A stretch of 64,000 nucleotides of DNA from positions 7,130,001-7,194,000 of the forward strand of contig NZ_CP066831.1 of the NCBI RefSeq assembly GCF_016598615.1. The letters are read 5' to 3'. Under the pieces are notes generated by a model. It had not been told where the DNA came from. It was given only the letters and a program-made list of their open reading frames with translations, and did no database searches. The position numbers and the translations under genes were made by a program. How positions within the stretch are numbered: position 1 is the stretch's first letter; each line of letters opens with the position of its first letter. Shown one piece after another: positions 5,027 to 35,029 of the stretch. Source of the DNA: Streptomyces liliifuscus. Lineage in GTDB: Bacteria > Actinomycetota > Actinomycetes > Streptomycetales > Streptomycetaceae.

Positions 5027-5111
5027 TCTGGGTTCCCCTCCAGATGCTTATGTGTTCCGAACATCTTGACGGAAGGTGCGAGGGTGCGGGACCGGCGGGG
5101 TGGATTGATGC

Positions 5112-5723
5112 CTAGTTGTTGATGGTCTGTTCCAGACACTCGACGTATCGACTGAGCCTGGCGGCCGAGTGCGCGGCCGCCGATGCGGCGTAGTACGGCT
5201 TCGACCACAGATGTCCATCAAGAGTGTGTGATTGCCGGAGAGCCCTGGTTGAAGCCCCTCGCATACGCTGGGCCAGGCTTGCGACGGATGTGTCGACCGG
5301 ATAGCGCACGACCAGGTGAACGTAGTTGGCCTTGCAGCGAATGTCCTCCACCTCCGACTTCAGGGACCGCGCGGCGTCGCGCATCGTGCGCTCTATGAGT
5401 GATCGCAAGTCATCTGTGAGCGCTGGGCTGTCTCGTGCCGTCACGAACGCAAGATGCGTTCGAAGGTCATGAAAGTCGGCGTTGCCACGATCTCGATCCT
5501 TTCCTTCTGCCGCATGGCGCTGCCGAGCGGACCGTTTGGGAGGGTGTGCGGCTCGCCAGACATCGAGTTCGGGTTGTGACCAGGTCGGGGTGCGGCCTGT
5601 GTAGGACGGGTGTGGGAAGTCGTTCTCCTTCCGGGAATTGAGGACGTAGATCACTTGGACGGTGACGCCGAGATACTCGGCTGCTTGTGCCGGTGTGAGT
5701 CGAGAGTCCGCCATATGTTTCAC
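5112..5723 (-). CDS. HTH-fused IS200-like (Y1/HUH) transposase, first catalytic His missing
   Basis: A 203-residue protein with two parts. Residues ~8-60 (LTPAQAAEYLGVTVQVIYVL ... W..PELDVWRAAH) form a winged HTH of the MerR/excisionase kind. Residues ~85-203 resemble Y1 transposases of IS200/IS605: HLAFVTARD replaces the usual HLVFVTKYR, then come the LWSKPYYAAS motif and the C-terminal helix with the candidate nucleophilic Tyr (LSRYVECLEQ). The HUH motif, normally DHVHL, reads NYVHL, so the first His is Tyr (TAC). Cleavage activity is therefore doubtful. Start is GTG 5723, or ATG 5714; the palindrome at 5722-5760 reaches into the start. The gene is divergent from tnpB. It could be a regulator derived from a transposase, a RAYT-like protein, or simply an inactivated TnpA. 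Confidence 0.7.
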   Translation of the reverse strand: MKHMADSRLTPAQAAEYLGVTVQVIYVLNSRKENDFPHPSYTGRTPTWSQPELDVWRAAHPPKRSARQRHAAEGKDRDRGNADFHDLRTHLAFVTARDSPALTDDLRSLIERTMRDAARSLKSEVEDIRCKANYVHLVVRYPVDTSVASLAQRMRGASTRALRQSHTLDGHLWSKPYYAASAAAHSAARLSRYVECLEQTINN

Positions 5724-5760
5724 GGTATGACAGACAAGTTGAACTTGTCTGTCATACGGT
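5722..5760. promoter_or_regulatory. 39-bp palindrome between the HTH-Y1 gene and tnpB
   Basis: GTATGACAGACAAGTT (5725-5740), a single central base, and AACTTGTCTGTCATAC (5742-5757) are perfect 16-bp arms, extended to 19 bp with one mismatch. The site overlaps the start codon of the minus-strand gene and lies 62 bp before the tnpB ATG, so it is placed to control both. A likely ligand is the HTH domain of the neighbouring protein. A folded single-strand transposase site is the alternative. Confidence 0.65.
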
Positions 5761-5821
5761 GAGTGCGCTGGTCGCCTTACAGGTGAGGCCAGTTGAGCCG
5801 CACTCGGGGAAGGGGGCGGAA

Positions 5822-7147
5822 ATGGCAGTTGGCAAGGGCAGTCGGACGAGGAAGCCGATCAAGGAACCCGCCGATGCCGGGCGCACCTATCGGCTCTGTC
5901 CCACACCTCAGCAGGCCGAGCGGCTTCTGCTGTGGGGCCACACCTGCCGGGCTGTCTGGAACGTAGCTCTGGAGCAGCGGCTCTATGTGTATCGGCAGAG
6001 GCGCGTGTACCTCCGGGCCGATGAGCAGTGCCGGTACCTGACCGAGGCTCGACGCGATCTCGAATGGATCGCGGATCTGCCCTCTCAGGCTCCGCAGCAA
6101 GTCCTCAGGCACCTCGATCGGGCCTACGACAATTTCTGGAACGAGGAGCATCCAGCTGGCTTCCCGCAGTTCAAGAAGCGCGGTGCGCGGATGGCGATTC
6201 CCCTCCCGGGGCAGGCCGTGCGTGTGACCCGGCTCAACCGCAAGTGGCCTTCGTACGTGTCCCCAAGCTGGGCGAGGTGAAGTTCAGGCTGACGCGTCCC
6301 CCTCGGAGGACGGATCAAGAGCGCGACGATCCGCACGGACGGCTCGGGGCATTGGTACGTCAGCTTCGGCGTCCACACCGGCAGGACGGTCGCCTCGCCG
6401 AACGAGCAGCCCCCCGTGGGTATGGACTTCGGCGTCAAGCAGTCGGCGTACCTGTCGGACGAGACTGCTCCGCGCCTCATGCCGCAGACCTTGACGGAAG
6501 GCGAGAAGCGCAGGCTCGCCGGATTGGAGCGCCGCAGGGAGCGGCAGCTCGCACATGCCAGGAAACACCGAGGCGGCAAGTACAGCCACCGCCTGCGCGA
6601 GACCCTGCGCGCCATCGCGGAACTGAGGGCGCGCCAAGCTCGTCGCCGTCTGGACTTCACGCACAAACTCACCACCGACCTGGCCAAGAGCCACGGCCTG
6701 GTCGCTGTCGAGGATCTTCGGGTGAAGCAGATGACGAAGAATGCCAGGGGCAGCCGTGTCGAACCTGGCATGCGCGTCGCTCAGAAGGCGGCCCTGAACC
6801 GGGGTGTGCTCGACAACCTGCCGGGTGAGAGACGCCGACAGCTCGTCTACAAGTGCCCCGTGTTCGGATCCGTTCTCGTTGCGGTGACTCCTGTGGGTAC
6901 CTCGCAGACCTGCGGTGTCTGCCGGCAGCGGGACCCGGCATCGCGCATCAGCCGGGACGTATTCGTCTGCACGAAGTGCGGACACACTGACGATGCCGAC
7001 CACAACGCGTCGGTCGTCATCCTTGCCCGCGGCCTTCGGACCGCAGTCGGCAAGGCTTCCGCCGCAGGGCATTGCGGTGAACAGCACGCAGGGGCGGGCC
7101 ATGCACGGCCCCACCATGTCCTGAGCTCGCCCGGGACGCACGCGTGA
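5822..7147 (+). pseudogene. tnpB: TnpB RNA-guided nuclease, broken by two compensating frameshifts
   Basis: The start is ATG 5822 (GGGGAAGGGGGCGG precedes it). The N-terminal part (TYRLCPTPQQAERLLLWGHT, HPAGFPQFKKR) is typical of TnpB. Near 6247 the homology moves to the -1 frame (AFVRVPKLGEVKFRLTRP) and returns to the original frame at a run of five C (6298-6302), giving GGRIKSATIRTDGSGHWYVSF. Without correction the frame stops at TGA 6278-6280. The rest is intact: RuvC Asp in GMDFGVK, Glu in VAVEDLRVK, final Asp in DDADHNAS, and the zinc knuckle TCGVC ... CTKC. The full reconstructed length is about 440 residues. TnpB is an RNA-guided nuclease that retains IS605-type elements by cutting the empty site. 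It could be a sequencing artefact, a recent pseudogene, or two mutations that nearly restored the frame. Confidence 0.75.
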
Positions 7148-7209
7148 ACCCCTGAACCCCTCATCCACCGCGGCCCCGGCCGTTGCGGATACCGAGGGCT
7201 ACAAGGAAT

Positions 7210-7239
7210 CCCTGCGGTGCACCCCAGGGAGGATGCCAA
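7210..7239 (+). other. Right end of TnpB element and probable reRNA scaffold end
   Basis: CCCTG-C-GGTGCACC-C-CAGGG forms a 20-nt hairpin with one C-C mismatch, flanked by GGAATC on the left and GAGGATGCCAA on the right. Known TnpB elements transcribe an RNA from the tnpB tail through this end, and the flanking host bases act as guide. Here the guide would begin at about 7240 (CAAGTAATCGAGTTTC), just upstream of the valS promoter. Confidence 0.5.
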
Positions 7240-34904: not shown

Positions 34905-34909
34905 GCACC

Positions 34910-34976
34910 CGCGCAATCGAAGACGCCCCCTGGCCTGCGGTCGGACCGCAGGCCAGGGGGCGTCTTCGATTGCGCG
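34910..34976. terminator. Perfect 32-bp stem terminator after rne
   Basis: The arms 34910-34941 and 34945-34976 are exact complements with a 3-nt loop. They begin CGCGCAATCGAAGACGCCCC, seven bases after the rne stop. This is far longer than a usual terminator stem. Confidence 0.85.
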
Positions 34977-35029
34977 GACGACGCTCCGTCAGGGGAAGCG
35001 AACTGCCGTGATTTCCGCCCGGTTTGGGA

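Follow-up and report, generated by a model that had tools for sequence, protein, structure and literature searches.

An excisionase-like helix-turn-helix fused to a Y1 transposase domain beside tnpB in Streptomyces liliifuscus, and its possible role as a repressor

Introduction

What does a transposase do after it has gained a DNA-binding domain and lost most of its metal ligands? This question is raised by a tnpB element of Streptomyces liliifuscus, which lies in a stretch of 64,000 nucleotides (contig NZ_CP066831.1 of assembly GCF_016598615.1, positions 7,130,001 to 7,194,000; here called the window, whose numbering is used throughout). In this element, a gene encoding a winged helix-turn-helix (HTH) joined to a Y1 transposase domain is divergent from tnpB. 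To our knowledge, control of TnpB expression has been little studied. We consider it rather probable that this transposase has been exapted as a dimeric repressor of its own gene and of tnpB, and that it no longer nicks DNA. If so, the case would show that a transposase, without leaving its element, can cease to cut DNA and come to control the RNA-guided nuclease encoded beside it, and it would hint at a class of small regulators of tnpB.

Domain Organization of the Fusion Protein

The gene and its domains are located as follows.

5112..5714, minus strand: HTH-Y1 fusion protein, with ATG at 5714 and an open frame from GTG at 5723; under purifying selection
5538..5714, minus strand: Xis/MerR-like winged HTH, residues 4–62 (PHROG_597 and PHROG_66; AlphaFold2; RdfS 8dgl)
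5127..5471, minus strand: Y1 (IS200-type HUH) domain, residues 85–199 (Pfam; 2f4f)

The open frame is continuous (5112–5723 on the minus strand) and corresponds to 203 residues. Its C-terminal two thirds (residues 85–195) match Pfam Y1_Tnp with an E-value of 9.6e-17, and the protein scores above the cut-off of the NCBIfam model transpos_IS200. The N-terminus is matched by PHROG_597 (3e-9) and by PHROG_66, “excisionase and transcriptional regulator” (1e-7), and weakly by Pfam HTH_17 (0.008) and likewise by an NCBIfam excisionase model. An AlphaFold2 model consists of a winged HTH (predicted local distance difference test score, pLDDT, ~90), a loose linker and the Y1 core. The core superimposes on the IS200-type transposase 2f4f with Z 14.4 and a root-mean-square deviation (rmsd) of 2.1 over 104 residues, and the best solved match to residues 1–61 is the excisionase RdfS (8dgl), with a modest Z of 7.8 and rmsd 3.5 over 59 residues. 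The latter match came from VIA-align, and a Foldseek search of the PDB with the same residues gave no HTH protein among the best matches listed. The joining of an HTH to an IS200-type Y1 domain, as the preliminary description of this locus had read from the sequence alone, is confirmed, with a likeness of the HTH to excisionases that PHROG_66 and RdfS suggest and that stays below cut-off in Pfam and NCBIfam.

The combination is real and unusual. The N-terminal HTH places the protein outside the 12 subclasses set out in PMC6006769, and no further HTH-Y1 fusion was found in a class-wide sample; one candidate (L111), whose match extended into the HTH region, turned out to be a canonical TnpA. The IMG/VR search gave no relatives, and searches of phages and plasmids gave no full-length match. 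Excisionases (RdfS, PHROG_66) share the winged HTH fold of residues 1–61, but they are stand-alone proteins of ~70 residues acting with integrases. IS607 TnpA likewise has an N-terminal HTH followed by a recombinase domain and adjoins tnpB, whereas its catalytic domain is a serine recombinase (PMC9956272).

Loss of Metal Ligands from the Y1 Domain

Three sites in the Y1 domain bear on its activity.

5316..5327, minus strand: NYVH (N133-Y134-V135-H136) in place of [DN]HVH, with the Tyr134 codon at 5322–5324
5145..5147, minus strand: Tyr193, at the nucleophile position, kept
5133..5135, minus strand: Leu197 at Tyr+4, where canonical TnpA has Gln, the third metal ligand

In Y1 transposases of the IS200/IS605 type, the metal is held by two His and one Gln, as in the IS608 and ISDra2 structures. 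The canonical Y1 proteins collected here share the motif [DN]H[VI]H, and all those in which the Tyr stretch was read have Y[IV]xxQ. In the fusion protein, the first HUH His, noticed earlier as altered from the reading NYVHL, is indeed Tyr134, and the Gln is replaced by Leu197; because both are gone, two of the three ligands are missing and one is left, while Tyr193 and the fold remain. The Tyr helix and LWSKPYYAAS had also been described as kept. This holds for the W motif (LWSKPYY) and for Tyr193, but the helix is kept in part only, its Gln at Tyr+4 being replaced.

The His-to-Tyr change alone is not a functional signature and signals nothing new, because it recurs in unrelated TnpAs. It is a single transition and is found in three lineages in all, the other two being on separate branches of the tree (L113 and DR0177). 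L113, from another genus, is an otherwise canonical TnpA with DYVH for DHVH and with the Gln kept. DR0177 (PDB 2fyx), which belongs to the degenerate ISDra2* copy (PMC2806898), has the same Tyr and matches the fusion in fold with Z 14.2, but it has no HTH and its close relative L138 keeps the His. The Tyr as a mark of a family of active YVH transposases was ruled out, since relatives of DR0177 read DHVH or DHIH.

A Sister Copy and Purifying Selection

An element in S. phaeochromogenes (L032) is inserted at the same clpX-valS site and encodes the same HTH, NYVH and Leu beside an uninterrupted tnpB. The two copies also have an odd left junction in common. The insertion and the ligand losses are therefore older than the split of the two copies, and the altered motif is not a fresh mutation. 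The preliminary description had held that close homologues with HVH and without the HTH would mark this copy as a damaged or chimeric TnpA. The outcome is split: the sole close homologue, that of S. phaeochromogenes, has both the HTH and NYVH, and among the other Y1 relatives (at most ~35% identity), the HTH is absent throughout and HVH is present with few exceptions.

Between the two copies, the fusion gene has 31 synonymous and 18 nonsynonymous changes, with a nonsynonymous to synonymous rate ratio (omega) of 0.175 and a deficit of nonsynonymous changes against expectation (p 3e-8). For the Y1 core by itself, the numbers are 20 and 13, respectively (omega 0.195, p 2e-5), and the changes are distributed over the three codon positions as 12/4/33 (p 1e-6). 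The fusion protein is thus under protein-level purifying selection after the ligand loss, which is not expected for a functionless protein.

A maximum-likelihood tree nests the pair within TnpAs of actinobacteria; the stem of the pair has a length of 5.6 changes per site, whereas most other branches are below 0.5. This pattern suggests a fast phase followed by constraint, such as a new role would produce, with the exact place in the tree unsure for such long branches. Compared with IS200/IS605 TnpA (Y1, subclass 1.1 of PMC6006769), the protein shares the fold, the Tyr nucleophile, the W motif and the divergent tnpB, and differs in its N-terminal HTH, the missing first His and Gln, the very long branch and its single copy. 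The closest tnpB genes (55–61%) come mostly from elements with no gene other than tnpB; one of the elements has an ordinary tnpA.

A Palindrome between the Divergent Genes

5720..5762, no strand: 43-bp palindrome with 21-nt arms, proposed operator (fold z -8.4)

The palindrome, TCACGGTATGACAGACAAGTT-G-AACTTGTCTGTCATACCGTGA, lies between the ATG of the HTH-Y1 gene (5714) and the start of tnpB (5822), and is perfect in L032 with one mismatch in the window copy. The two copies differ at 1 of its 43 positions versus 10 of 64 for the remaining spacer (p 0.047). The 11.3 Mb genome holds no second copy even with up to 3 mismatches, and the genome search found no host-wide operator regulon. Matches of the palindrome in Rfam were to miRNAs only and were judged to be chance. 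Only one palindrome in the window ranks higher, a perfect one of 69 bp with 34-nt arms at 34909–34977.

A similar layout has been described for CvkR, the MerR-type repressor of the type V-K CRISPR-associated transposon, which is divergent beside cas12k, binds a palindrome and represses; Arc-type genes also adjoin cas12k (PMC9938897). Both systems have a gene for a DNA-binding protein divergent from an adjoining RNA-guided nuclease gene and a palindrome in the promoter region, a likeness of layout only. CvkR has no Y1 domain, its motif is 15 nt against 43 bp here, and regulation has been shown for CvkR.

Stand-alone HTH Genes beside TnpB in Other Genomes

HTHs 44–65% identical to that of the fusion are encoded by stand-alone Streptomyces genes of ~60–85 residues. 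Of 17 loci in other Streptomyces genomes, 12 have such a gene divergent from a TnpB-type gene, with gaps between the starts mostly of 47–120 bp; three of the other five loci are at contig edges. Ten of the 12 partners are a TnpB-like protein of ~670 residues with a TNB domain (one split by an insertion, one a remnant), and a conserved inverted repeat, TAGCTGA..TCAGCTA, is found in the spacer of this type. The remaining two are an IS607-type TnpB at guaB (L043) and another TnpB (L033). Tentatively, repression of tnpB by the product of a divergent Xis-like HTH gene may be a repeated feature of TnpB elements in Streptomyces, which would extend the principle of CvkR beyond CRISPR; in the present element, such a repressor may have taken over an inactive Y1 transposase as its dimer core.

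The ~670-residue family (L034–L042, e.g., L036:1841–3844) has the TNB domain alone in Pfam and scores below the cut-off of named TnpB families. The IS607-type TnpB at L043:4086–5905 has a divergent HTH-only partner of ~73 residues, and its insertion is next to or inside a guaB-like gene. The genome of the window encodes another HTH of this sort (L047:4125–4298), whose neighbours are replication genes of DnaB-like and AAA-like type; these may be part of an integrative element.

Proposed Role and Alternatives

The two domains, the ligand loss, the shared insertion, the selection, the single-copy palindrome and the divergent layout can be brought together as follows. In a common ancestor of S. 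phaeochromogenes and this strain, an IS605-type element would have inserted itself between valS and a lipoprotein-like gene. An N-terminal HTH of the excisionase type would have been added to the Y1 domain of its TnpA, two of whose metal ligands were replaced (His by Tyr, Gln by Leu), and the fusion, greatly diverged, would now be maintained as a protein. A dimer joined through the Y1 core would bind the 43-bp palindrome between both starts, repress its own gene and tnpB, and nick DNA no more. That a transposase had turned into a DNA-binding regulator was proposed earlier; the loss of two of three ligands, the later purifying selection, the palindrome and the HTH genes divergent from TnpB elsewhere fit this proposal, in which binding and regulation are the inferred part.

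Several points weigh against it. The resemblance of the HTH to Xis is under the Pfam and NCBIfam cut-offs, the lower divergence of the palindrome is barely significant, and a scan for sigma-70-type promoters found nothing. The selection test compares one pair of sequences, given one sister copy. Synonymous divergence (dS) of the element, 0.24 (tnpB 0.16), is 2–3 times that of valS (0.09) and clpX (0.07), otherwise unexplained unless by codon constraint on valS and clpX. Furthermore, the tnpB frame in this assembly has three single-base indels relative to the S. phaeochromogenes copy (~6246, ~6298 and ~7109). Sequencing or assembly error is possible instead of real decay, because all three are in short homopolymers; if the indels are genuine, repressing tnpB would no longer serve a purpose in this strain.

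Among the alternatives, a chimeric TnpA that is dead and persists beside tnpB as a functionless, neutral fossil is unlikely, though worth some weight. Its uniqueness, its single copy, the unclean left end and the broken tnpB would suit such a fossil, as would the same His-to-Tyr change in a degenerate element (DR0177), but both copies are open, selection has acted on the protein after the losses and the palindrome is retained. Also unlikely, and slightly more so, is an Xis-like accessory protein, whose architectural binding at the ends or the palindrome would steer excision or retention by a trans-acting transposase, not transcription. In its favour, the HTH resembles excisionases, and the long palindrome can form a hairpin, a structure to which Y1 cores bind; that palindrome, however, is internal, between the starts and away from the ends, and related copies were found neither elsewhere in the genome nor in 393 genomes of the genus.

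Very unlikely is an active transposase with altered chemistry, in which Tyr134 or another residue would replace the lost ligands. Tyr193, the fold and the W motif are kept and the His-to-Tyr change occurs in three lineages, but the His is present in close relatives of both other proteins with the Tyr, and no second copy is found. The “different chemistry” suggested earlier thus finds no support, as a single ligand is left once both the first His and the Gln are gone, and signs of mobility are absent. A domesticated regulator of a host gene such as valS, with tnpB incidental, is most improbable: the element is fixed beside valS in two species and its predicted guide is located upstream of valS, but the palindrome is solely between the two element genes.

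The tnpB Gene and the Ends of the Element

The dimeric repressor favoured above would act within an element whose other parts are as follows.

5822..7147, plus strand: tnpB (RNA-guided endonuclease), with RuvC and zinc-finger motifs; frame broken
5101..5110, no strand: left junction zone from empty-site alignments, with host homology to ~5100 and TTGAT at 5105–5109; shared with L032
7180..7239, plus strand: right end, which is putatively the 3′ part of the omega-RNA, GGAATC-hairpin-AGGATGCCAA; from an alignment with nine tnpB relatives, and conserved with L032
7240..7259, plus strand: host flank, predicted omega-RNA guide CAAGTAATCGAGTTTCGGGA, from the empty-site junction and the known TnpB mechanism

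The OrfB/TNB domains and the RuvC residues are found in TnpB. No further copy of the element was found in the host genome. The empty site is present in ~30 aligned genomes. Elements of the IS200/IS605 type have a subterminal hairpin near either end and insert 3′ of a tetra- or pentanucleotide. Here the left end is not clean: the 9–13 bp before the insertion are unlike every empty site, and the usual CACCGTTAC is absent from the occupied site. The left-end hairpin is weak, and the host target may be TTAC, with an eroded left end, or TTGAT. At the other end, the hairpin matches the pattern of related elements, and the empty sites give the junction at 7239/7240, the position earlier read as the right end, with the predicted guide starting at the next nucleotide.
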